A DNA stretch of 64,000 nt from Cloacibacillus sp. An23 (lineage in GTDB: Bacteria > Synergistota > Synergistia > Synergistales > Synergistaceae). The notes below the pieces were generated by a model. It saw only the letters and a list, made by a program, of their open reading frames with translations. It was not told the DNA's origin and ran no database searches. The translations under genes were made by a program, and so were the position numbers. Numbering within the stretch: position 1 is the stretch's first letter; every line of letters starts with the position of its first letter. The DNA lies in the NCBI RefSeq assembly GCF_002159945.1, contig NZ_NFJQ01000002.1:186001-250000 (forward strand), given 5' to 3'. Positions 20,679-54,075 of this stretch are shown here, one piece after another.

Positions 20679-22436
20679 ATGGCTGTTAAAAGGACGCTGA
20701 GGGCGGTACGTCCGGCTGCCGCGCTCGAGCGCGAGTACCGCGAGAAGCTGGACAAGCTTATAGACGACATGCAGCGCTCGGTCATCTGGTGGATGCGCGC
20801 TGCTTACCGCAGGCGCGAAAACCAGATAACGCAGGACGCGGGCCCGGCGCGCGACTTGTCGCAGGAGCTGCAGAGCGTCATGCGCGACTGGCTCAAAAAG
20901 TACAACGAGGCCGCTGAGACGCTCGCACAGTGGTTCGCGGATAAGAACTCGCAGCACGTGCGCAACTCCACGCGCGAGGCATTCAAGGCGGCGGGGATAG
21001 CCGAGCTGTTCACGGTCAAATTCCGCTACATGAGCCGCCACGAGCGCGACGTGCTGCAGTCTATCATCATTGAGAACGTCAATCTGATAAAGTCCATACC
21101 TCAGCACTATTTTACGGAGGTGCAGGGGCTTGTGCAGCGGTGCGTGCAGAACGGGCGAGACCTCGGCTATCTGACGGACGAGCTCGGCAAGCGCTACCAG
21201 ATAACGCGCCGCCGCGCTGCAATGATAGCGCGCGACCAGACAAACAAGGCGACGGAGAACCTGTCCCGCGCGCGTATGCAGAGCCTCGGGATAACGAAAG
21301 GCATCTGGATACACACCAGCGCCGGGAAGACGTACCGGCATACGCACGTGGAGATGAACGGCAAGGAGTTCGACCTCTCCAAAGGCATGTACGACAGCGC
21401 GGTGGGGCGCGAGGTGTTCCCGGGGGAGCTGGTGAACTGCTTCCCAGGCAATTCAAAGTTGTATGGACTTCCGTTCGTAGAAAAGCTGTACAGGCGTTTT
21501 TACAGAGGCGAACTGACCGAGCTCGTTACGATAAACGGTGTAGTCCTTAGAGTAACACCGAATCATCCAATACTCACTCTTGAAGGGTGGAAGGCTGCCG
21601 GCCTCGTTGATTGCGGAGATTATATTTTCCAGATAGGCGCTAAGGACAGATACGTCAGAGAACTCAATCGTTATGGGGCTATACCCACATTCGAGAATTT
21701 TTTTGAGGCGTTTGTTGGACATGGTGCTTCTGCCTCGATATTTGGTTGTGCCGAGTGTGACTTCCACGGCGACGTGTCCGATGGCGAAATCGACGTTATA
21801 GATGTCAATAGCTTTTTGACGGACAAAACGAAAACCTCTTTGTTCAAGAAAGGACGCGAGTTCGGTTTCACCAGGTCCGAAGTGAGAGGCATTGCCGGTG
21901 TCCTCTCGGGAGGATGCGTAATGACATCGTTGGCTATGGGGCATTTCTCCGCGACGAGCTTCACGGGCAGCGTGAGTAAGCGCTTGTCTGTATTCCTCGG
22001 TAGTCTCACGATAGCGGAGCTTGTTTGCCTCTTTTCCATTTCTCGGGGTAATCCCAGCTCGCAGAATGCGACGACGAATGACATTGCGGGAACACCCAAA
22101 ATGGCGGGCAATTTCCAGCTCGCTTACGCCGGACTTGTACATGGATATGACCTCATCTTCGGGGACAAGTGTTCTATCATCGGTTCGTCGGTTTCGTGGA
22201 ATGGTGAATCCACGCTTCCTAACATGAATGGAGAGGTTGTCGGGGCAGACCCCCAGCTCTTCAGCAACCGTTTTAAGCATCTTACCTTCGGAGAGACGTT
22301 TTACCGCGTCGTTGATAAGCGCGTCAGTGAATTTTCTGGGCATGTTTATAACCTCCAGACTTCGCTAGGTTGGTATATCGCAGACCATACCGTTGCGCAT
22401 AATTGCCGTTGTACTTATAAACCTATTATATCATAG
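20679..22436 (+). CDS. Mu F-like head morphogenesis protein carrying an intein
   Basis: A 585-residue frame. Extein residues 1-253 and 576-585 make a head minor protein of the phage Mu F/SPP1 gp7 type, with YQITRRRAAMIARDQTNKAT, THVEMNGKEF and the hallmark NCRC, which is exactly where the intein sits. Residues 254-575 are the intein, predicted to splice out and restore PGELVN-CRCTY. The extein after NCRC is short (10 residues), within the variation of the family. Lies between portal and protease/scaffold genes. Confidence 0.88.
   Translation: MAVKRTLRAVRPAAALEREYREKLDKLIDDMQRSVIWWMRAAYRRRENQITQDAGPARDLSQELQSVMRDWLKKYNEAAETLAQWFADKNSQHVRNSTREAFKAAGIAELFTVKFRYMSRHERDVLQSIIIENVNLIKSIPQHYFTEVQGLVQRCVQNGRDLGYLTDELGKRYQITRRRAAMIARDQTNKATENLSRARMQSLGITKGIWIHTSAGKTYRHTHVEMNGKEFDLSKGMYDSAVGREVFPGELVNCFPGNSKLYGLPFVEKLYRRFYRGELTELVTINGVVLRVTPNHPILTLEGWKAAGLVDCGDYIFQIGAKDRYVRELNRYGAIPTFENFFEAFVGHGASASIFGCAECDFHGDVSDGEIDVIDVNSFLTDKTKTSLFKKGREFGFTRSEVRGIAGVLSGGCVMTSLAMGHFSATSFTGSVSKRLSVFLGSLTIAELVCLFSISRGNPSSQNATTNDIAGTPKMAGNFQLAYAGLVHGYDLIFGDKCSIIGSSVSWNGESTLPNMNGEVVGADPQLFSNRFKHLTFGETFYRVVDKRVSEFSGHVYNLQTSLGWYIADHTVAHNCRCTYKPIIS
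21438..22403 (+). mobile_element. Intein (322 residues) in the head morphogenesis gene
   Basis: It starts at Cys (TGC 21438), in CFPGNSKLYG. Block B is LRVTPNHPILT, with the TxxH motif. The C-terminal blocks are HVYNLQTSLGWYIADHTVAH and the final Asn (22401-22403), followed by Cys+1. All four splicing landmarks (Cys1, TxxH, terminal Asn, Cys+1) are present. The loop between the splicing halves is open on the + strand but has no recognisable endonuclease in that frame; an endonuclease gene is encoded on the opposite strand. Splicing is predicted, not shown. Confidence 0.88.
21453..22343 (-). CDS. Antisense homing endonuclease gene inside the intein
   Basis: A 296-residue protein on the strand opposite to the intein. 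The start ATG 22343 has GGAGGT 7 nt upstream on the minus strand. Residues 5-45 and 62-100 are two helix-turn-helix units (MLKTVAEELGVCPDNLSIHV; SELEIARHFGCSRNVIRRRI). Residues 155-230 form a Vsr/EDxHD-like or DUF559-like nuclease core: GETELASFLEQRGF, IYNVDFAIGHVAVEV (Asp, Glu) and KRLKKILECGYSPITIEF. It is a real domain arrangement, not a shadow. It overlaps both splicing halves of the intein. Its job would be to spread the intein. Confidence 0.85.
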   Translation of the reverse strand: MPRKFTDALINDAVKRLSEGKMLKTVAEELGVCPDNLSIHVRKRGFTIPRNRRTDDRTLVPEDEVISMYKSGVSELEIARHFGCSRNVIRRRILRAGITPRNGKEANKLRYRETTEEYRQALTHAAREARRGEMPHSQRCHYASSREDTGNASHFGPGETELASFLEQRGFRFVRQKAIDIYNVDFAIGHVAVEVTLGTTKYRGRSTMSNKRLKKILECGYSPITIEFSDVSVLSAYLENIISAINEAGSLPPFKSEYWMIRCYSKDYTVYRNELGQFASVKTPVQLFYERKSIQL

Positions 22437-37763: not shown

Positions 37764-38513
37764 ATGGCACAGCCGAATTTTATACCTGAGCCGTTTGCAA
37801 TAAACGGCGATAAGAACACTATCCCGGAGAGCACGACGGCGGGCGCGGCGAGCTGGCAGTTGGGCTTCCCGCCGATAACCGCGCTTCCGCTCGGGGCCGG
37901 AGGCGTGGCCCCCGACCGCAAGGACTTCAACGCCGTCCTTTACGCGCTTTCGGCGCACGCGGTGTTCATGCAGACCGGCGGCGTCTGGACATACGACGCG
38001 CAGCAGAGCTACGCGCCTCCCGCGCTGGTCTACGACGATTCCGACGACAATCTGTATTTCTGCGTCGGAGCCAACGGCCCGAATGGCACGGTGATGGCTC
38101 CGCACTCGGACACGACGGGGCAATACTGGCAAAAAATGCCGTGGGGAGATATGACGTGGCTGTTTGAGCCTATCCCTACGCGGACGGGCGACACTACTTT
38201 CACCGTGGCGGGCGACGCCACAGGCAAGTTCCCGATGGGCAAGCTGCTGCGCTTCAACTCGTCCGACGCTTATCTCTGCCGCGTCTTCGGTTCGCCGGTC
38301 TACGGCAGCGGGCTGACGACGGTCACGGTGTGGTTCGACAACGCTAATAACGTCATACCGTCGCCGATAACGAGGCTCGAGCGCAGCAGGCTTATCCCAG
38401 AGGCTACCGCGCGCGGCGTGGCGCTCGTCACGACGACGCAGTACAGCCAAGACCAGATTACAAAGCTGCTGCAAAGCTACTGCTACAGCTCGGTCACTAT
38501 AAAGGGGGCGTAA
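37764..38513 (+). CDS. Tail fibre stem protein
   Basis: A 249-residue protein with an N-terminal virion-attachment region (PEPFAINGDKNTIPES, FPPITALPLGAGGVAPDRKD, FNAVLYALSAHAV), a carbohydrate-binding-like YFCVGANGPNGTV segment and a helical end. It lies directly before the fibre-tip genes. Probably the invariable stem on which tip proteins act. The next gene starts 4 bp after its stop region. Confidence 0.72.
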   Translation: MAQPNFIPEPFAINGDKNTIPESTTAGAASWQLGFPPITALPLGAGGVAPDRKDFNAVLYALSAHAVFMQTGGVWTYDAQQSYAPPALVYDDSDDNLYFCVGANGPNGTVMAPHSDTTGQYWQKMPWGDMTWLFEPIPTRTGDTTFTVAGDATGKFPMGKLLRFNSSDAYLCRVFGSPVYGSGLTTVTVWFDNANNVIPSPITRLERSRLIPEATARGVALVTTTQYSQDQITKLLQSYCYSSVTIKGA

Positions 38514-38516
38514 GAC

Positions 38517-39086
38517 ATGAGCATACCGATGGACGTTGTTTATGTGCCGGACGAGTACGGCAATCTAATCCAGACCAGGGTCCCGACCGCAATCGGCTTC
38601 CCGACGTGGTTCGCTGGCCCGGAAATCCCGGAGGGCTATCTCTACTGCGACGGCAGCGAGGTCAACCGCAACGTGTACAAGGAGCTCTTTGCCGCCATAG
38701 GCACCACGTGGGGAGCCGGGGATGGTGCGGATACGTTCAACATCCCTGACCTCAGAGGCATCTTTGTGCGCGGCGACGGCGGGGAGAACAATGCGGATTT
38801 GGGAGTGAGGCAGGGTGATGCAATACGGAACATTAAGGGACGGTTGTTTGATTATCTATGGCAAGATGTAAACGGTGGTGATGTACCGATATTATCAGCA
38901 TCTAACAATGGTTGCTTTGGCAACAATACAACTGACACGAATGAAGCGCGAAGTGTAGCGAACCCAAATACAATCAAATTAACCGGTTATGACGGAATTT
39001 TGTTTGACGCTTCGCGTGTTGTCCCCACCGCCGCCGAGAACCGCCCCGTAAATGTCGCGTTAAGACCCTGCATCAGATACGTATAG
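38517..39086 (+). CDS. Tail collar fibre-tip protein A (no poly-G leader)
   Basis: A 189-residue phage tail-collar (PF07484-type) protein: PTWFAGPEIPEGYLYCDGSE, ELFAAIGTTWGAGDGADTFN, IPDLRGIFVRG, and the terminal PVNVALRPCIRYV. The middle (codons 100-165) is more AT-rich and variable, as expected for a receptor-binding part. Unlike the five other tip genes it is coupled tightly to the stem gene and has no G-tract leader, so it should be made always. Confidence 0.85.
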   Translation: MSIPMDVVYVPDEYGNLIQTRVPTAIGFPTWFAGPEIPEGYLYCDGSEVNRNVYKELFAAIGTTWGAGDGADTFNIPDLRGIFVRGDGGENNADLGVRQGDAIRNIKGRLFDYLWQDVNGGDVPILSASNNGCFGNNTTDTNEARSVANPNTIKLTGYDGILFDASRVVPTAAENRPVNVALRPCIRYV

Positions 39087-39100
39087 GAGGAAACAAAACA

Positions 39101-39192
39101 ATGACAGTTAGTATATGCAAACGGGGGGGGGGCGCTCCTCCATAGGACGCAACATATAGTTAACATATCCCGCGCGCGGAGGGCGGACTGAG
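39101..39192 (+). promoter_or_regulatory. Poly-G leader 1 (10 G, out of phase)
   Basis: A leader ORF with SD AGGAGG (39085-39090) and ATG 39101 reads MTVSICKRGGGAPP and stops at TAG 39143-39145. The tract is G10 (39123-39132). With 9 G the same frame would stay open to TGA 39189-39191, one base before the fibre ATG 39193. CGCTCCTCC after the tract can pair, with one bulge, with GGAGGGCG, the fibre gene's SD. Present state: coupling off. Confidence 0.75.
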
Positions 39193-39783
39193 ATGCCGGA
39201 CATCGAGAGCTACGGCGTTGACGAATATGGCCAGTCCTCGGGCGTCAGATCCAGATCGCGCGTGGGTGACATCGTTTTCTCGCCGCGAGCCACCCCGCGC
39301 GCTGGCACGCTGGTCTGCGACGGCTCTGCTGTGTCTCGACAGACGTATAAGGAGCTGTTTGACTTCCTCGGCGTTTCCTGCGGCGCAGGAGATGGCGAGA
39401 CTACGTTTAACTTGCCCGACCTACGCGACGTATGGATACTCTGCGCTGGGACGGAGCACGAGGCGGGGGACCGTGTCGCGGAGGGGCTGCCAAATTTGAC
39501 AGGACAAATACAAGCACGTAATTATTCCAACAACTCAGGCTCGCCAATGCCGCCCAATAACATTGTGGATAGTGGAGTTTATAATGGCGCAGGGTTAATA
39601 TCCACAGAATTCCAATCAGGGGATGAATGGGGAGACGTTTTGAGCACGGGCACCAGCAACACAACCGGGCAAAGGACTACTGTGTTGAGGTTTAACGCAC
39701 AAAACGACAATGACATCTACGGCGCATCCGACCACGTAACGCCCAAAAGCGTGGTGTTGACGCCGTGCATAATCTACGAGTAG
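39193..39783 (+). CDS. Tail collar fibre-tip protein B
   Basis: A 196-residue tail-collar protein: RATPRAGTLVCDGSAVSRQT, ELFDFLGVSCGAGDGETTFN, LPDLRDVWILCAG and the terminal SVVLTPCIIYE. The end (YGASDHVTPKSVVLTPCI) is shared with C and G, while the middle differs. Its own SD is GGAGGG (39177-39183). Preceded by poly-G leader 1, at present out of phase, so expression is predicted to be low. Confidence 0.85.
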   Translation: MPDIESYGVDEYGQSSGVRSRSRVGDIVFSPRATPRAGTLVCDGSAVSRQTYKELFDFLGVSCGAGDGETTFNLPDLRDVWILCAGTEHEAGDRVAEGLPNLTGQIQARNYSNNSGSPMPPNNIVDSGVYNGAGLISTEFQSGDEWGDVLSTGTSNTTGQRTTVLRFNAQNDNDIYGASDHVTPKSVVLTPCIIYE

Positions 39784-39800
39784 ATAGGAGATATTGAACA

Positions 39801-39902
39801 ATGATACAGCATACACGCAGAAAGTGTACACGGGGGGGGGCAATCCTCCCTAGTTAGTAGTCATATAGTAGCCATTTCGCCGCTCTCAGGGAGTGCTGCA
39901 TG
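39801..39902 (+). promoter_or_regulatory. Poly-G leader 2 (9 G, out of phase)
   Basis: SD TAGGAG and ATG 39801; tract G9 (39832-39840). The present frame stops at TAG 39855-39857. With 8 G it stays open to TGA 39901-39903, overlapping the fibre ATG 39903 (TGATG; ATG 39900 gives ATGA). CTCCCT (39846-39851) complements AGGGAG (39888-39893), the fibre SD. Present state: coupling off. Nearly identical to leader 5. Confidence 0.75.
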
Positions 39903-40433
39903 ATGGCCCGCGTCAGAGAGTACGGCGTCGACGAGACCGGCGCGCCGAGCAGCGTACTGCTGGGCTGCGCGATAGGCGACATCATCCCGCACTTCGGCAG
40001 CACGCCGCCGCCTGGGACGCTCGTTTGCGACGGCTCGGAAATCTCGCGCGAGACCTACCACGAGCTTTATGAGGAGATAGGCGCGCTCTGCGGGCCGGGC
40101 GACGGCTCTACGACGTTTAATTTGCCAGACCTGCGCGGGCGGTGGATGGTGGGCGCTGACACAGAACGCGGTGCGGGCGAAGAGGTAGCGGAGGGGCTGC
40201 CGGACATCGTTGGTACAGTTGGATGGGTCAACGACAATTTGTTTACCGTGGCAAGTGGCGCTTTTTCTGGCGTGCCAGGCAAAAACGACTACGGAGTTAT
40301 TGCGCAACCGACTTCGAACACGACTCTGTCTAGAGTGAACTTCAACGCTTCAGCGTCTAACCCTACCTACGGTGCATCCAACCACGTCACGCCCGCGAGC
40401 GTGGCAATTTTGCCATGCATCGTTTACGAGTAA
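39903..40433 (+). CDS. Tail collar fibre-tip protein C
   Basis: A 176-residue (177 from ATG 39900) tail-collar protein: GSTPPPGTLVCDGSEISRET, LYEEIGALCGPGDGSTTFNL, PDLRGRWMVGAD, end YGASNHVTPASVAILPCIVY. N- and C-terminal parts match B and G, with a distinct middle. Controlled by poly-G leader 2, at present out of phase. Confidence 0.85.
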   Translation: MARVREYGVDETGAPSSVLLGCAIGDIIPHFGSTPPPGTLVCDGSEISRETYHELYEEIGALCGPGDGSTTFNLPDLRGRWMVGADTERGAGEEVAEGLPDIVGTVGWVNDNLFTVASGAFSGVPGKNDYGVIAQPTSNTTLSRVNFNASASNPTYGASNHVTPASVAILPCIVYE

Positions 40434-40455: not shown

Positions 40456-40534
40456 ATGTTAGCATACTGTAAGTATATACGGGGGGGGTAGTCCTCCCCA
40501 GTAGTCATCTCTTTGTTGCCGCGGAGGACGCAAG
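40456..40534 (+). promoter_or_regulatory. Poly-G leader 3 (8 G, out of phase)
   Basis: SD AGGAGG (40441-40446), ATG 40456, tract G8 (40481-40488), stop TAG 40489-40491 right after the tract. With 9 G the frame runs to TGA 40536-40538, overlapping the fibre start 40535 as ATGA. GTCCTCC (40491-40497) is a perfect complement of GGAGGAC (40523-40529), the fibre SD. Present state: coupling off. Confidence 0.75.
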
Positions 40535-41041
40535 ATGATTGGCGTCAGGAGTGGCATCAATGAGTATGGCCAGCCATCGAAGTTCATACTCTCTGGCTAT
40601 GTTGGCGAGTTCAAGTATTTCGGTTTCGAGAGCGTTCCGCCGCACTGCCTTGCCTGTGACGGCAGCGAGGTAAGTCGTGAGACGTACAGCGAGCTTTTCG
40701 CGGTGTTCGGCACGATGTATGGGGCCGGTAACGGGACTACGACGTTCAACTTGCCGGATTTCCGTGGCGCGTTTTTGCGTTGTGTCGGCGGCAATGCAGC
40801 TAATTTAGGAGTATTGCAAGATGCTACTCTCGTTGGTCAATATTGTCTTGGCAACAATGGTTCCCAAATTGCACTTGCTGTGTACCAACGAGATAGCGAA
40901 GGGACGCTTCCAAGGGCAAATACATCATACTCATATACACCAATGGGGTATATACCACAAAGTGAAATTGTAAGCGGAAATATTGGGTGGACATCTCGGC
41001 CACTCAACTATGCAGTCAACATCTGCGTAGTCTACGAATAA
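40535..41041 (+). CDS. Tail collar fibre-tip protein D
   Basis: A 168-residue tail-collar protein: ESVPPHCLACDGSEVSRETY, ELFAVFGTMYGAGNGTTTFN, LPDFRGAFLRCVG, end PLNYAVNICVVYE. The middle and C-terminal coding part (from about 40790) is clearly AT-rich, pointing to a separately acquired receptor-binding module. Controlled by poly-G leader 3, now out of phase. Confidence 0.85.
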   Translation: MIGVRSGINEYGQPSKFILSGYVGEFKYFGFESVPPHCLACDGSEVSRETYSELFAVFGTMYGAGNGTTTFNLPDFRGAFLRCVGGNAANLGVLQDATLVGQYCLGNNGSQIALAVYQRDSEGTLPRANTSYSYTPMGYIPQSEIVSGNIGWTSRPLNYAVNICVVYE

Positions 41042-41071
41042 TCTAAAAATCCCGAAAGGAGCAAATTGAAT

Positions 41072-41941
41072 ATGAGCAACAATCAGCAGGCGGAGAGACC
41101 CGCCGCACCAGTCATATACACCTACGACAAGACCACCGGCGAGTACAAGCCGGAGGCAAAGGCCACGTGCCAGTGGTCACCTCGCGAAAATAAGTGGCTT
41201 ATCCCCGCAGCGGCCACGACCACAGAGCCGCCGACCGCGGGCGAGAAGCAGGCCGCGTGCTTTGACGCAGCCTCCAAAGCGTGGACGCTCATGCCCGACC
41301 ACCGCGGCGAGAAGTGGTACGACAAGGCCACGCGCGAGCTGCACGAAATCAAGGACATCGGCGTCGAGCCTGACGAAACCGTATGGACACAGACCGAACC
41401 GAAAGACGGTGAATCCGTCTGGGACGAGGAAACCGGCGGCTGGGTAATCCCGCCCGAAGTGCAGGAGCGCCGCAACCTCGCAGAGGCACAGCGGCAGGCC
41501 AACGACATAATCACAGCCGCCATGCAGCGCAGCGCCGTGCAGACGATGTCATTTTCCGCCGCTGAATTTAAGACCTTTGCCAAGGCTAGACTCTTTGACG
41601 AGTGGCAGGCGGGCGAGACCTACGAGGCCGGATACCGCCTCGTCCACGAGGGCGTCGTCTATGAGGTAATCCAGCAGGTCACGGCAATCGAGACGCAGCC
41701 GCCGAGCGCGGAGGGTATGCTCGCGATATATCGCCCGCTCTCGGTAGACAGCGAGACCGGCGATGAGCCGGACGGCACGCTCGAAAATCCGTACACCTAT
41801 CTGGACGGCATGGACGTGTACAACGGCAAATATTACAGCTACAACGGCAAAATCTACTTAGCCAAAGCAGACATGCTACCGTGTACATGGGCACCGGGCA
41901 CGGCAGGCCTCTGGCAGTGGGAAGAGGTCACGGAGGCATAA
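41072..41941 (+). CDS. Tail fibre assembly-like protein with carbohydrate-binding end
   Basis: A 289-residue protein (ATG 41072; SD AAGGAG, no G-tract leader). The N-terminal half has repeated short fibre-assembly-like motifs (YDKTTGEYKPEAKATCQWSP, WVIPPEVQERRNLAEAQRQA). The C-terminal half carries two carbohydrate-binding-like units of the CBM5/12 kind (EWQAGETYEAGYRLVHEGVV and YYSYNGKIYLAK...W.P). It is probably a chaperone or accessory fibre shared by the tip proteins. Confidence 0.68.
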   Translation: MSNNQQAERPAAPVIYTYDKTTGEYKPEAKATCQWSPRENKWLIPAAATTTEPPTAGEKQAACFDAASKAWTLMPDHRGEKWYDKATRELHEIKDIGVEPDETVWTQTEPKDGESVWDEETGGWVIPPEVQERRNLAEAQRQANDIITAAMQRSAVQTMSFSAAEFKTFAKARLFDEWQAGETYEAGYRLVHEGVVYEVIQQVTAIETQPPSAEGMLAIYRPLSVDSETGDEPDGTLENPYTYLDGMDVYNGKYYSYNGKIYLAKADMLPCTWAPGTAGLWQWEEVTEA

Positions 41942-41944
41942 ATA

Positions 41945-42049
41945 ATGACATTACGTAATGTATACGGGGGGGCGCTCTGTGGTAAACACTATCGCAGAGT
42001 ATGCAACCTAAGACAACATAGAGCAGTTTCAGCAAGGGAGGCGCGATAG
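41945..42049 (+). promoter_or_regulatory. Poly-G leader 4 (7 G, in phase)
   Basis: SD GGAGG (41932-41936), ATG 41945, tract G7 (41966-41972). The 34-codon leader is open to TAG 42047-42049, directly followed by the fibre ATG 42050 (TAGATG). Either 6 or 8 G would stop early. The fibre SD lies in a perfect 9-bp stem, AAGGGAGGC (42034-42042)/GCCTCCCTT (42053-42061), with the start codon in the loop; a ribosome finishing the leader would melt it. Present state: coupling on, the only one of five. Confidence 0.8.
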
Positions 42050-42580
42050 ATGGCCTCCCTTATTTCTTCCGGCATTGACGAGTACGGCAATGCGAACGAA
42101 GTCCATCTGCCTGACTTCACCGGCTGCTTACTCTTGGCCACGACACCGACGCCACCCGCTGGCACACTTGTAGCGGATGGCAGCGAGGTCTCGCGCGAGG
42201 CCTACGCCAAGCTCTTCGCCATCTTCGGCACACAGTACGGCGCGGGGGACGGTGTGAGCACGTTTGCGCTGCCGGACTGGAGAGACGAGTTCCCGCGCTT
42301 CAACGGGACGAGCCGGACGGTGGGGAGTACGCAGGGGGACGCGATAAGGGATATGTCCGGTTTATTCGGAGCTGATTCAAATGGTATATTTACCCGGGCC
42401 ACAGGGTGTTTTACTGGCATTCCGCGACTAACGGACACATCTATGGCGACACAACCCGACACAAGTGTGGGAGGACAGTATCGACAGGTAACATTAAGTC
42501 TTGCCAATGCCGGTATTCCGACCGCCGACGAAAACCGCCCGCGGAACGTGGCGTTCCTGCCATGCGTAATATATGTGTGA
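42050..42580 (+). CDS. Tail collar fibre-tip protein F (predicted expressed)
   Basis: A 176-residue tail-collar protein: TPTPPAGTLVADGSEVSREA, KLFAIFGTQYGAGDGVSTFA, LPDWRDEFPRFNG, end PRNVAFLPCVIYV. The middle is AT-richer and variable. Its leader is in phase in this sequence, so besides protein A this should be the tip protein made by the sampled population. Its first codons form one arm of the SD-sequestering stem. Confidence 0.85.
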   Translation: MASLISSGIDEYGNANEVHLPDFTGCLLLATTPTPPAGTLVADGSEVSREAYAKLFAIFGTQYGAGDGVSTFALPDWRDEFPRFNGTSRTVGSTQGDAIRDMSGLFGADSNGIFTRATGCFTGIPRLTDTSMATQPDTSVGGQYRQVTLSLANAGIPTADENRPRNVAFLPCVIYV

Positions 42581-42598: not shown

Positions 42599-42701
42599 AT
42601 GATACAGATAACAATTAGAAAGTGTACACGGGGGGGGGGCAACCCTCCCTAGTTAGCAGTCAAATAGTAGTCATTTCGCCGCTCTCCGGGAGGGCTGCGT
42701 G
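42599..42701 (+). promoter_or_regulatory. Poly-G leader 5 (10 G, out of phase)
   Basis: SD AAGGAG, ATG 42599, tract G10 (42630-42639), stop TAG 42650-42652. With 8 or 11 G the frame runs to TGA 42700-42702, overlapping ATG 42702 (TGATG). CCCTCCC (42643-42649) is a perfect complement of GGGAGGG (42688-42694), the fibre SD. Present state: coupling off. Confidence 0.75.
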
Positions 42702-43301
42702 ATGGCTTACTACTCGACCTACATGCAGAACGAGAACGGAGAGATGCAGAAAGTAGTCATCAACGCGGGCGTGGGCTTCGTCCTCCCATACTATGGCGAG
42801 ACGGCCCCGCCCGGCACTCTGGCGTGTGACGGCTCGGAGGTAAGCCGCGAGGCGTACAAGGAGCTTTTCGCCGTTCTCGGCACCAAGGCGGGCGCTGGGG
42901 ACGGTGTATCGACATTCAATCTGCCTGACATGCGCGGGCGGTGGCTGGCGGGTGCAGATGCAGAGCGTACAGCGGGGGCATCGATAGCAGAAGGATTGCC
43001 GGATTTATACGGTTCTCTAATATTTAGACCATTAGCGTCTGGTACTTATCCTAACATTGTATATGCGGCGTTAGTTAATCTTGGCTCATCAGGCGTTTTT
43101 ACCAAAAGCGATGCAGCAGAGAATCCCGGCTGCTGGTCTTCTGCAGTTGCGATAGGACTATCTGCCCCTTCATCTGCCGGTAATGCTATCGGTGGAGAAG
43201 TTGTGCGATTTCACGCGCAAAATGCTAACCCTATCTATGGTGCTTCCCAGAACGTCACGCCTGCGAGCGTGGCGGTGCTCTGGTGCATCATCTACGAGTA
43301 G
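42702..43301 (+). CDS. Tail collar fibre-tip protein G
   Basis: A 199-residue tail-collar protein (ATG 42702; GTG 42699 is also possible): GETAPPGTLACDGSEVSREA, ELFAVLGTKAGAGDGVSTFN, LPDMRGRWLAGAD, end YGASQNVTPASVAVLWCIIY. The C-terminal sequence matches B and C except for Trp in place of Pro before the last Cys. Last gene of the fibre array, under poly-G leader 5. Confidence 0.85.
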   Translation: MAYYSTYMQNENGEMQKVVINAGVGFVLPYYGETAPPGTLACDGSEVSREAYKELFAVLGTKAGAGDGVSTFNLPDMRGRWLAGADAERTAGASIAEGLPDLYGSLIFRPLASGTYPNIVYAALVNLGSSGVFTKSDAAENPGCWSSAVAIGLSAPSSAGNAIGGEVVRFHAQNANPIYGASQNVTPASVAVLWCIIYE

Positions 43302-48089: not shown

Positions 48090-49581
48090 CACAACGACAC
48101 AGCTCTTACCGCACCAGCAGGCGGCGGTCGATAAGGTCAGAGGTATAAAGGTCTCCGGGCTTTTCATGGACATGGGCACGGGTAAGACGCGCACGGTCAT
48201 AGAGCTCGCCAAGCTCCGCGCGCCGCGCATAGACCATGTGCTCTGGATATGCCCTGTGTCTCTTAAAGAGACGGTTCGGCGCGAGATAATGAAACACACG
48301 GACTGCACGCCGGAGGATATATACGTCTTCGGCGACAAGACCGACTCCGCTCTGCCGAAAGACAAGCTCTGGTATATAGTCGGCATAGAGAGCTTTTCGT
48401 CGTCCTCGCGCGTCACGATGGCGGCGAACGCGATAATCACCGACAAGACATTCGTAGTCATGGACGAGAGCAGCTACATCAAGGGACACAACGCCATCCG
48501 CACGCGGCGCGTCACGCTGCTCGCGGAAAAGGCGAAATACCGCACGATACTCACCGGCACGCCGCTCACACAGGGCATCGTTGACCTCTTCTCACAGATG
48601 TACTTCCTCTCGCCGAAGATACTCGGCTACAAGAGCTTTTACTCCTTCGAGGCCAACCATCTCGAATACCATCCGAAGCGTCCTGGGCTCGTAGTCAGAG
48701 CGCACAACGTCCCGTATCTTGCCGAGAAGATAAAGCCCTACGTCTACCAGTGTACGAAAGACGAGTGCATGGAGATCCCCGACAAGCTCTACAAAACGCG
48801 CTGGGTACGCCTCACGGACGAGCAGGAAGAGGCATACGAGGCGGCAAAAGAAAAATTCGAGCACGACATGGACGAACTCGAAAGCCGCTACACCATAAGC
48901 TATATGAGCGACGACTACCCGGATTCCTTCTGGCGTAGAAGCTCCATGCTCATATTCCGTCTCTTTACGAGCCTCCAGACCATAGTCTGCGGCTTCGAGC
49001 GCGTAAGAACGGGCAGGGACAGCTTCGAGCTCAGGCGGTACGACAGCCGCAGGACGGAGGCCCTTCTCGACGTCGTCCGCTCACTGCCGGAAGATAAGGT
49101 CATCGTCTGGGCGAAATATCTCAACTCGATAGAAGACATTTCAGAAGCCCTTTGCGAAGAATACGGGAAGGAAAAGGTCTGCCTCTATCACGGCGGGCTC
49201 AACGCGAAGCAGCGCGACGCCGAGCTTGACCGCTTCGAGGCGAAGGACGGGGCTCGCTTTCTAGTGGCGACTCAAAGCTGCGGCGGCCACGGGCTCAACC
49301 TCCAGTTCTGCCGCTGGCAGATATTCTTCGCAAACGGCTTCAAGTACTCCGAGCGGCTGCAGGCCGAAGACCGCTGTCACAGACACGGACAAAGGCGGCA
49401 CGTTACTTACATAGACCTCTGCGCCTCAGACACGATAGACGAGAAAATAGATGAAGCGCTTACGAAAAAGGGCAGCCTTCTCGACGCCTTCCGGCGCGAG
49501 GTGAAGCGGATAAAAGACGACAAGGACACAGGCAAGGCTGATAAAGTGAAAAAGCTGAAGGAGATGGTGAGGAAGCTGTGA
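48076..49581 (+). CDS. SNF2-family helicase
   Basis: A 501-residue SF2/SNF2 ATPase: LLPHQQAAVDKV (Q-like), Walker A MDMGTGKT near residue 33, motif II VVMDESSY, motif III LTGTPLTQ, HGG..A..R (motif IV), VATQSCGGHGLNLQ (motif V) and QAEDRCHRHGQ (motif VI). The helicase core is complete. It probably remodels or anneals DNA with the preceding protein. Overlaps the IbrA-like gene by ATGA-type coupling (GTG start 49578). Confidence 0.9.
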   Translation: MRQINTTTQLLPHQQAAVDKVRGIKVSGLFMDMGTGKTRTVIELAKLRAPRIDHVLWICPVSLKETVRREIMKHTDCTPEDIYVFGDKTDSALPKDKLWYIVGIESFSSSSRVTMAANAIITDKTFVVMDESSYIKGHNAIRTRRVTLLAEKAKYRTILTGTPLTQGIVDLFSQMYFLSPKILGYKSFYSFEANHLEYHPKRPGLVVRAHNVPYLAEKIKPYVYQCTKDECMEIPDKLYKTRWVRLTDEQEEAYEAAKEKFEHDMDELESRYTISYMSDDYPDSFWRRSSMLIFRLFTSLQTIVCGFERVRTGRDSFELRRYDSRRTEALLDVVRSLPEDKVIVWAKYLNSIEDISEALCEEYGKEKVCLYHGGLNAKQRDAELDRFEAKDGARFLVATQSCGGHGLNLQFCRWQIFFANGFKYSERLQAEDRCHRHGQRRHVTYIDLCASDTIDEKIDEALTKKGSLLDAFRREVKRIKDDKDTGKADKVKKLKEMVRKL

Positions 49582-50879
49582 AGACGGGAAAAACTTATAC
49601 GAACATAAACGTATACGAGGCGGCGCAGAAGAGGCTCGACTACATCTTCGGCGAGTTCGACCGCGTGCTCGTCGCCTTCTCCGGCGGCAAGGACTCGGGC
49701 GTCTGCCTCAACCTCTGCTACGAGTACGCGAAAGAGCGCGGCCTGCTGGGCAAGCTCGCCATGTACCACATCGACTACGAGGCTCAGTACAGAGCCACGA
49801 CCGAGTTCGTTGAAAAGACCTTCGCGGCGTTCCCCGGCATAGAAAAATACTGGTGCTGTATGCCGGTAGGCGCAAGCTGCGCCTGCAGCATGACCGGGGC
49901 GTACTGGTATCCCTGGGAGAAGGCGAAAAAAGAGATCTGGGTGCGCCCGATGCCCGACAACGAGTTCGTCGTCAACGAGGACAACTGCAAGGCCCCTTTT
50001 ACCCCGGGAGACAGCGATTACGTCTTTCAGGAAAACTTCTCGAAGTGGTACGCGAAGGAGAACGGACGCACCGCGGTCGTCGTCGGCATACGCGCGACGG
50101 AGAGCCTCAGCCGCTACAGCGCGGTGGCAAGGATAGACAAAACGACCGGCTATAAGGGGAAGAGCTGGCTCACCGAGGTAGACGGCTCCACCGTCAACGC
50201 TTACCCGATATACGACTGGGAGACGGCGGATGTATGGATAGCAAACGCGAAATTCGGATGGGACTATAACAAGCTCTATGACCTCTACTACATGGCGGGC
50301 GTCCCGGTCGAGCAGATGCGCGTCGCATCTCCGTTCCACCAGTGCGGCGCGGCGAGCCTCCGGCTGTATAAGGTCATTGACCCGTCTACTTGGGCGAAGA
50401 TGGTCGGGCGCGTCAACGGCGTCAACTTCACCGCGATATACGGGGACACGATAGCTATGGGCTGGAAGGATATAAAACTTCCGGCGGGCCACACGTGGAA
50501 GTCGTATTACGAGTTCCTGCTCACGACGATGGACAAGGCCACAGCGGAACACTATGACGACGTGCTCCGGCGCAGCAAGAAATACTGGATGGAGAAGGGC
50601 GGCGGAGTCAGGAAAGAGACGGTCAAGGAAATAATGCAGACAATACCGGGCGTCGAGCACGTCGGTCCCTCGAAGCAGTACGAGGGTCGCGAGATACTGC
50701 GCTTTTCGGAGTACCCGGACGACATAGACTGCTCCGAGTTCACTGTCGTGCCGTCCTACAAGCGTATGTGTATTTGCATAATGAAAAACGACTATTACTG
50801 TAAATACGCCGGCTTCGGCCCGACGAAGGAAGCGACGGTCAAGCGCCGCAAGGCGATGGAGAAATACAAGAATTTATAA
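49578..50879 (+). CDS. PAPS reductase-like protein (IbrA/DUF3440 type)
   Basis: A 433-residue protein with the PP-loop SGGKDSGVCLNL near residue 32, GIRATESLSRYS near residue 170, DWETADVWIANAKFGWDYNK, FHQCGAASLRL and DUF3440-like C-terminal helices. IbrA proteins are adenine-nucleotide alpha-hydrolases encoded next to ParB-like IbrB, as here. In E. coli prophages IbrA/IbrB activate expression of other genes; the biochemical reaction is not settled. GTG start overlaps the helicase stop. Confidence 0.82.
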   Translation: MKTGKTYTNINVYEAAQKRLDYIFGEFDRVLVAFSGGKDSGVCLNLCYEYAKERGLLGKLAMYHIDYEAQYRATTEFVEKTFAAFPGIEKYWCCMPVGASCACSMTGAYWYPWEKAKKEIWVRPMPDNEFVVNEDNCKAPFTPGDSDYVFQENFSKWYAKENGRTAVVVGIRATESLSRYSAVARIDKTTGYKGKSWLTEVDGSTVNAYPIYDWETADVWIANAKFGWDYNKLYDLYYMAGVPVEQMRVASPFHQCGAASLRLYKVIDPSTWAKMVGRVNGVNFTAIYGDTIAMGWKDIKLPAGHTWKSYYEFLLTTMDKATAEHYDDVLRRSKKYWMEKGGGVRKETVKEIMQTIPGVEHVGPSKQYEGREILRFSEYPDDIDCSEFTVVPSYKRMCICIMKNDYYCKYAGFGPTKEATVKRRKAMEKYKNL

Positions 50880-50912
50880 CAGAGATAAGAGGGAACGGAA
50901 GGAAGGATATAA

Positions 50913-51446
50913 ATGTTCAGAAGCCCGGCTTATGATGTGAGACCCGTCCCGGTGGAACGGATACGCGCGAACGAGTATAACCCGAACTCCGTCGCGCCGC
51001 CTGAGATGAAGCTGCTTTATAAATCCATACTCGAGGACGGCTATACTATGCCCATCGTCTGCTACTACATCCCCGAGGAGGACGTCTACGAGATAGTAGA
51101 CGGGTTTCACCGCTGGATGACGATGCTTAAGCACAAGGACATTTACGAGCGCGAGCACGGAATGATACCAGTGACTGTCATTGACAAGGACATATCAAAC
51201 CGCATGGCGAGCACAATACGGCACAACCGCGCGCGCGGCACGCACGACGTGGAGCTGATGAAAAACATCGTCGCGGAGCTCGTCGAGGCGGGGATGTCCG
51301 ACGCGTGGATAATGAAAAACATCGGCATGGACGCCGAAGAGCTGCTCCGGCTGAAACAGATCTCCGGTCTTGCGGCGCTTTTCAAAGACAAAGAGTTCTC
51401 TCGCTCATGGGAGGCCGACAATGCCGAAGAAGACGATAACCTATAG
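50913..51446 (+). CDS. ParB-like nuclease domain protein (IbrB type)
   Basis: A 177-residue ParB/Srx-fold protein: PVPVERIRANEYNPNSVAPP, YTMPIVCYYIPEEDVYEIVD, GFHRW and IRHNRARGTHD, then a helix-turn-helix (MSDAWIMKNIGMDAEELLRL). Directly after the IbrA-like gene, it completes an IbrA/IbrB pair. AAGGAAGG precedes ATG 50913. Its 3' end overlaps the GNAT gene. Confidence 0.82.
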   Translation: MFRSPAYDVRPVPVERIRANEYNPNSVAPPEMKLLYKSILEDGYTMPIVCYYIPEEDVYEIVDGFHRWMTMLKHKDIYEREHGMIPVTVIDKDISNRMASTIRHNRARGTHDVELMKNIVAELVEAGMSDAWIMKNIGMDAEELLRLKQISGLAALFKDKEFSRSWEADNAEEDDNL

Positions 51447-52821: not shown

Positions 52822-54075
52822 ATGAATTTGACAGACAAGGAAATAAAAGCGATAAAACCAGTGAACAAACCGAAATATAAAAGTGACGGTAATGGACTGT
52901 ATATTTATGTTTCCCCTATTAAAGTAGGTGGAAGGGTTTCGTACCACTATAAGTGGATGTATCGTTATACAAGCCCTGTTACAGGACAACAAGTTTGGTA
53001 TAAAGGGAAGATTGGTGATTATCCTAATGTGTCCTTAAAAGAAGCAAGGCAAATAAGGGGAGAATTGGCTAGGAGTAGTGACCCTAATGCGGAATTGGAA
53101 AGGAAAAAAAAAGAGGTAATTTTAGAACGTATAAAGTCATTTGAAGATGTTTTTGATATATGGTATGAATATTGGCGCAAAACTGTAGCACCAACTACAG
53201 AAGAAAAAATCATGTCCCGATATAACTGCCACATAAAGACCAGTAAAAACAATAAAAAGCTAATATGTGACATAACCACTTTAGATATTTCAACAGATTT
53301 AAACAAGCTAAGTGCCCCTAGTGCCGAAAAGGTCAAGGGAATATACAATATGGTTTTTACGTTTGCTATCAATGAGGGGTATGGTATAGATAGAGAGGGA
53401 AAGACTATTATTAATCCAGTGCCCAAAGGAACACTGCTTTCACATCGTACATATACAGAAAAGAAGCACCCTGGTATCACAGATAAAGAAAAGTTGCCTA
53501 ATCTCATAAAAAATATCTATGGCTATAGTGGTAATCCTATTGTTAGAGGGGCGTTGATTTTTCTTTTGCATTGTGCAACGAGGAGTAGTGAGATGCGTCA
53601 TATCAAGTGGAGGGATATAGATTGGGAAAATAAGATAATTACAGTACAAAATACAAAAAACAAACATAGTTTGAAAGTTCCTATGAGCTGTCAAGTTGAA
53701 GATATGCTTAACGAACTGAAAGTCATTAGGGGCAATTCTCTGAAAATTGATGATTATATTTTTCATAAACGTGGAGATTTTAAGACACCAATAAGCAATG
53801 TAACGACAAATGCGGCTTTACAGTTGATGGGATACGATACACATAAAGAGCATACTACTCATGGCTTTAGAACGACATTCTCAACGTTTGCTCATGAAAT
53901 GTGGGATTCAAAATATGGGCGTGAAATTATAGAGAAACAGTTAGACCACGTAGTTGGAACAGGTGTTGCTCGAATATATGACGAATCGGAACATTTGGAA
54001 TGTCGAAGGGCGTTATTACAAGATTGGAGTAATTTTCTTGATGAGATAGGATATAGTAAAAAAGCAGTTGCTTAA
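52822..54075 (+). CDS. Tyrosine integrase (P4 type)
   Basis: A 417-residue integrase: N-terminal DUF4102 arm-binding domain (NLTDKEIKAIKPVNKPKYKS, IGDYPNVSLKEARQ), a core-binding domain, and the catalytic domain with Arg in ATRSSEMRHIKW, HTTHGFRTTFST (His-x-x-Arg) and the nucleophile Tyr in GVARIYDES. All catalytic residues except an unassigned Lys are seen. AAAGGAG lies before ATG 52822. AT-rich unlike the phage genes, so it may belong to the neighbouring island rather than the prophage. Contains an A9 run near 53104. Confidence 0.92.
   Translation: MNLTDKEIKAIKPVNKPKYKSDGNGLYIYVSPIKVGGRVSYHYKWMYRYTSPVTGQQVWYKGKIGDYPNVSLKEARQIRGELARSSDPNAELERKKKEVILERIKSFEDVFDIWYEYWRKTVAPTTEEKIMSRYNCHIKTSKNNKKLICDITTLDISTDLNKLSAPSAEKVKGIYNMVFTFAINEGYGIDREGKTIINPVPKGTLLSHRTYTEKKHPGITDKEKLPNLIKNIYGYSGNPIVRGALIFLLHCATRSSEMRHIKWRDIDWENKIITVQNTKNKHSLKVPMSCQVEDMLNELKVIRGNSLKIDDYIFHKRGDFKTPISNVTTNAALQLMGYDTHKEHTTHGFRTTFSTFAHEMWDSKYGREIIEKQLDHVVGTGVARIYDESEHLECRRALLQDWSNFLDEIGYSKKAVA

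Follow-up and report, generated by a model that had tools for sequence, protein, structure and literature searches.

A probable array of five poly-G leader switches at the tail tip genes of a Cloacibacillus prophage

Tail tip genes and G-tract leaders of the prophage

The sequence analysed, referred to throughout as the window, was a stretch of 64,000 nucleotides from Cloacibacillus sp. An23 (contig NZ_NFJQ01000002.1, positions 186,001 to 250,000), whose genome comprises 2.9 Mb in 31 contigs. The window contains a prophage, with an integrase at 52822-54075 together with terminase, portal, baseplate wedge and baseplate hub genes. Elsewhere in the window, a Mu F-like head protein (20679-22436) exhibited a match to an intein splicing domain in its C-terminal half, and at 49578-51446 a PAPS reductase/DUF3440 gene was found with a further ORF behind it; we take the two to resemble an IbrAB-like pair.

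On the 3' side of the baseplate genes, and all on the forward strand, the gene order was a tail-fibre protein, tips A, B, C and D, gene E, and then tips F and G. The tail-fibre protein (37764-38513) matched the PHROG tail fibre families phrog_12796 and phrog_1396 over residues 1-85 and is the candidate shaft. The six tips all matched the Pfam Collar domain, namely tip A (38517-39086, E=2e-20), tip B (39193-39783, E=1.4e-15), tip C (39900-40433, E=1.2e-17), tip D (40535-41041, E=4.3e-20), tip F (42050-42580, E=3.7e-17, also matching phrog_1858, tail fiber) and tip G (42699-43301, E=5.5e-19). Gene E (41066-41941) was of the tail-fibre assembly type (phrog_105, E=1.2e-28), and a weak match to CBM5/12 (PF02839, E=4.7e-5) fell below the cut-off. 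The N-terminal half containing the collar was common to the tip proteins and the C-terminal half was divergent, a pattern that alternative tips sharing one attachment site would be expected to show. The tips would be assembled at the fibre tip, presumably on the same fibre for all. An AlphaFold prediction for tip G (six window sequences) gave a pLDDT of 47, with the collar region alone folded.

Five tracts of 10, 9, 8, 7 and 10 G were located upstream of tips B, C, D, F and G, respectively, each positioned after 7-10 codons of a leader, that is, a short ORF of 27-34 aa with its own SD and ATG. From the ATG to the end of the tract, leader B occupies 39101-39132 (G10 at 39123-39132), leader C 39801-39840 (G9 at 39832-39840), leader D 40456-40488 (G8 at 40481-40488), leader F 41945-41972 (G7 at 41966-41972) and leader G 42599-42639 (G10 at 42630-42639). 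The tracts therefore sit in separate leaders, 46-77 nt to the 5' side of intact tip ORFs, and not inside the tip ORFs. A G tract was also sought upstream of tip A and none was found; this tip has no leader and is presumed to be unswitched. Gene E is likewise without a tract. No other G or C run of at least 7 was present in the whole 64 kb window. Seven-G matches numbered 14, compared to an average of 4.9 in shuffled sequence, and one of 100 shuffles attained 14. All five tracts of at least seven G adjoin tail collar-domain tip genes (five tracts, five genes), for which receptor binding is putative.

To relate tract length to reading frame, each SD-preceded ATG leader was read through its tract at n-1, n and n+1. 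For every leader, only one of the three phases led to coupling with the tip gene, corresponding to 9 or 12 G for B, 8 or 11 for C, 9 for D, 7 or 10 for F and 8 or 11 for G. In the coupling phase, the end of the leader stop lay at -1, +4, +4, 0 and +4 relative to the tip start (B, C, D, F and G), so that stop and start overlap or abut. The overlap takes the form ATGA at tips C and D and GTGA at tip G, and at tip F the leader TAG is immediately 5' of the ATG. At the tract lengths present, leaders B, C, D and G were out of phase (OFF), with stops 13, 17, 3 and 13 nt past the tract, respectively, and the OFF-state stops fell roughly 40-50 nt upstream of the tip starts. Leader F was the sole leader in phase (ON). 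A first-pass annotation had reported these tract lengths and coordinates, the phases needed (9, 8, 9, 7 and 8 or 11), the leader of F as the only one in phase and stops within about six codons of the tract in the other four. Re-reading found the lengths and coordinates correct, the phases were reproduced exactly, and both statements on the leaders held.

The spacers between leader and tip were then permuted, with leader and tip retained. The probability of obtaining one coupling phase and two early-stop phases was 0.017, 0.146, 0.061, 0.055 and 0.134 for B, C, D, F and G, respectively, with a product of 1.1e-6. The five-leader architecture is unlikely to have arisen by chance.

The lengths of the tracts are a separate matter, being homopolymers, which are error-prone, and resting on one assembly. 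The one other copy of the provirus, in IMG/VR, was identical over 12.6 kb; it is probably the same assembly and so provides no independent reading of tract lengths. If the lengths were assembly or consensus errors, the state with F on and the others off would be unreal. Against this, the coupling geometry does not hinge on the precise lengths, and tracts of 8-12 G like these were present in contigs of many other projects. Assembly error was considered unlikely.

Leader coupling and the tip ribosome-binding sites

The locus is very probably a slippage-driven phase-variation array of five switches for phage tail tips, operating through translational coupling from the leaders. A ribosome would enter the short leader at its own SD and ATG and encounter the G tract 7-10 codons later. 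Slippage during replication, as postulated for this locus, would alter the tract by one G and shift the reading frame of the leader. In one frame, the ribosome would run to a stop overlapping or adjoining the tip start, and termination-reinitiation coupling would then lead to translation of the tip; in the other two frames an earlier stop would be encountered and little of the tip would be made. Since the tract is outside its coding sequence, the tip protein would never be altered. The five tracts would form a register capable of up to 32 states alongside the unswitched tip A, and the assembly would have captured the state in which B, C, D and G are off and F is on. Because an SD-like site of its own precedes every tip gene, the presumed silencing in the OFF phase may mean reduced rather than absent expression. 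Switching of the tips may play a role in host range. The host keeps MutS, which might slow the slippage of single-base loops.

Alternatively, the leaders could be real but exert no gating, with the tips translated from their own SD and the tract length either tuning expression or being neutral. The SD-like sequence at every tip gene is compatible with this, and the predicted accessibility of the tip RBS spans the range of the other genes in the window. A neutral tract, however, would not be expected to close two frames early and to place the stop of the third at the start codon, as is the case in all five leaders. Furthermore, among the phage matches listed (see below), coupling was seen for 27 of 35 tracts in short leaders that had an SD-started ORF downstream, against 11.5 expected, and in 15 of the 27 the overlap was exactly 4 nt. 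Leaders that do not gate their tips are therefore improbable.

For the gating reading, a possible role of RNA structure was assessed. Complementarity between the tip RBS and the sequence after the tract was observed for B, C, D and G (p=0.036, 0.032, 0.016 and 0.008, respectively) and not for F (p=0.84), where a 9-bp hairpin was found between the SD and the gene's own first codons. Over 32 leaders, many of which are orthologous, the complementarity gave a Stouffer z of -5.2. When 40 nt of coding sequence were included in the folding, other structures were obtained for B and D. Predicted RBS accessibility of the five tips was 0.77, 0.22, 0.80, 0.00 and 0.39, compared to a mean of 0.49 for the other window genes, and by full folding and accessibility the tip RBS was not consistently more buried than in control genes of the window. 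An anti-SD hairpin that would be melted by the leader ribosome is unproven as a model, with complementarity in four of five tips and ambiguous folding.

Related leaders in other genomes and phages

A search with the leader-plus-tract pattern identified two additional leaders in the An23 genome, on the small contigs C24 and C25, both in front of a different tail protein. The leaders and downstream starts of the two were near-identical, with the tract of C24 (G10) in phase and that of C25 (G11) out of phase, which suggested natural variation of tract length within the same genome. A locus of another genus in the family (G029) exhibited two such leaders, a G11 out of phase and a G10 in phase.

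These loci were combined with two IMG/VR pattern scans into one set of phage tracts. Tracts were classified automatically, and the set includes near-duplicate contigs and perhaps chance in-ORF cases; on this basis at least 107 phage tracts could be classified, at least 42 as leader-coupled and at least 65 as inside an ORF. Where the genes behind coupled leaders could be assigned to a family, most encoded tail or virion proteins; several genes had no match. The genes were also non-homologous, including another collar protein (L095), a Laminin-G-like lectin fold (L091, L107), a glycine-rich domain (L091) and tail-fibre C-termini (L055). One leader-like tract (L056 in G015, G9) was rejected as a switch and not counted, the ORF at its coupling start being only 9 aa. 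Repeated small ORFs, beginning with MAFLLSPK or a close variant and each bearing a G9 tract in frame, were seen in two metagenomic phage contigs (L089 and L102).

The bacterial genome contigs, which were mostly from Gastranaerophilales and were scanned with a pattern similar but not identical to that used for phages, contained at least 80 in-ORF tracts and at least three coupled tracts, two of the three belonging to one array in a Gemmiger MAG. Among the matches listed, the coupled fraction was 42/107 in phages and 3/83 in bacteria (Fisher p=1e-9), which suggests that leader-coupled tracts are largely a phage speciality.

Several tracts inside or close to bacterial genes were also recorded. 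Other G or C tracts in the chromosome of the An23 host suggest that it may phase-vary its own genes too. On contig C6 (47009 region; L076:232-2025), a gene resembling type I restriction specificity genes (PF01420) was found to contain an in-frame G10, which makes it a candidate for a phase-variable restriction system of the host. On contig C5 (213095; L074 near 1501), an SD-preceded short ORF with a C9 tract lies just 5' of a chromosomal ORF of 474 aa and is possibly another frame switch. Prepilin-like proteins (FTLAEVLITLGIIGVVAAMTLP motif) of many Gastranaerophilales genomes (L229, L230, L233, L237, L245 and others) had G10-G15 tracts at their N-terminus, suggesting that pilin phase variation may occur there on a large scale. 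In rumen Synergistaceae MAGs (L268:5858 and L270), in-ORF G tracts were located in surface genes that by eye looked to be of the glycosyltransferase and LicD types.

Tract variation and independence of switch states

Near-identical loci from different sources allowed tract lengths to be compared directly. The contigs L096 and L106, from two metagenomes, gave an alignment of 6,920 bp free of mismatches and with a single gap, and carried the same leader, with a predicted state of OFF (G10) in the former and ON (G9) in the latter. Similarly, the 2,322-bp alignment of L154 and L190 showed one gap and not a single mismatch, the predicted states being OFF (G10) and ON (G11), respectively. In both pairs, tract length was the sole difference. 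Four isolate proviruses (L091, L097, L103 and L109) were ~93-99% alike over most aligned parts and differed in their tract lengths. Compared to L097, leader 1 of L103 (near 12093) was directly 5' of the second tip gene, as if one tip cassette had been removed by recombination between cassettes.

Runs of 7-10 identical bases are generally slippery for polymerases. Programmed slippage of RNA polymerase or the ribosome on the G runs of 7-10 could thus mix the frames, so that each tip is made as a fixed fraction regardless of the length of the tract in DNA. The computed results are compatible with it. The one-G difference in otherwise near-identical DNA (L096/L106 and L154/L190) nevertheless indicates that the DNA tract length itself varies, and the phases across phages, at 45, 32 and 30 tracts for -1, 0 and +1 among the 107 matches listed, were near-random rather than fixed. 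Programmed slippage was accordingly judged highly unlikely, and replication slippage is retained as the preferred source of frame changes.

The finding of one switch ON in five had been interpreted in the first-pass annotation in two ways: as a plausible outcome if each switch is independent with about a one-in-three chance of being on, or as the result of selection for a single active tip. Among the phage matches listed, 32 of 107 tracts (30%) were in phase (binomial p=0.47 versus 1/3), and for five switches at 1/3 each the probability of one or fewer being ON is 0.46, in support of the first interpretation. The second supposes that the tips are mutually exclusive, with one useful at a time and exactly one switch held ON by selection. 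Consistent with this are the one-in-five state of the array itself and an orthologous two-switch array in which the ON tip was the second in L091 and L109 and the first in L097. Against it, within the 21 arrays of two or more tracts among the matches listed, 17 of 51 switches were ON and exactly one was ON in 9 arrays, compared to 9.0 expected under independence. Arrays with both switches ON (L089 and L204; in L090, two of three) and arrays with none ON were common. Selection for a single active tip was thus unsupported, and mutually exclusive tips are highly unlikely. Among the matches listed, the switch states are statistically independent, and the one-of-five state is uninformative about selection.

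Tip F, whose leader is the sole one ON, has the shortest of the five tracts (G7). Less frequent switching is expected for tracts of 6-7 than for longer ones (PMC8540345), so that leader F probably switches least, and its tip, encoded beside gene E, may be a default that changes slowly and not the outcome of chance.

Comparison with known systems

Tail tips or fibres are also diversified in phages with other tropism switches, namely the diversity-generating retroelement of Bordetella phage BPP-1 and the invertible tail-fibre segments of Mu and P1. Unlike BPP-1, the genome studied here lacks a reverse transcriptase (PF00078, whole genome searched). Unlike Mu and P1, the window contains no serine recombinase, the only PF00239 gene of the genome being on contig C12, and the inverted repeats around the array are not long, just 19-21 nt and imperfect. 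A diversity-generating retroelement or an inversion system was therefore unsupported as an explanation of the array.

Translational coupling through overlapping stop and start codons (ATGA, TGATG) has been described for ABC-transporter gene pairs, with a distance within 10 nt as the coupling criterion (PMC3711429). The leaders conform to that description, with stops at -1 to +4 nt from the start and a downstream RBS present. They differ in that the upstream ORF is a leader of 27-34 aa and a variable tract determines its frame, making the coupling switchable; in PMC3711429, phase variation and coupling are kept as separate classes. No description of leader-coupled tip arrays was found in the literature on these topics, of which coverage was incomplete. 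Whether the array represents a distinct class of contingency locus was considered evenly balanced. Such a class would consist of a serial leader-coupled poly-G register that independently and combinatorially gates the intact tips of one phage, with a short-tract tip as a near-permanent default, and it would occur in phages of several bacterial groups, largely as a phage speciality.

In practical terms, one prophage clone would be predicted to give rise to mixed virions, with a tip composition that could be read from the five G-run lengths. Tail genes annotated as intact may also be silent, and a consensus assembly represents a single arbitrary state.

The closest comparison is with the Fletchervirus phages of Campylobacter, for which poly-G phase variation of receptor-binding proteins is experimentally known (Sorensen et al. 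2021, as cited in PMC10877375, PMC8540345 and PMC11868660). The likenesses are G tracts of similar length beside phage receptor-binding genes (here candidates), several such genes per phage, and stochastic ON/OFF switching by slippage, which is presumed here. In Campylobacter phage NCTC12673 (GU296433), the two G tracts, G11 and G9, were found inside ORFs, in the ORF 115-117 region. Slippage there truncates the protein, whereas in the prophage a separate leader peptide would gate an intact gene by coupling, five times in series. What would be new relative to the Campylobacter phages is a switch located outside the protein, arranged serially and recurring in unrelated phages in front of unrelated tip domains. 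With leader gating, the N-terminus of each tip would stay exact while the tip is switched, and several tips could be combined.
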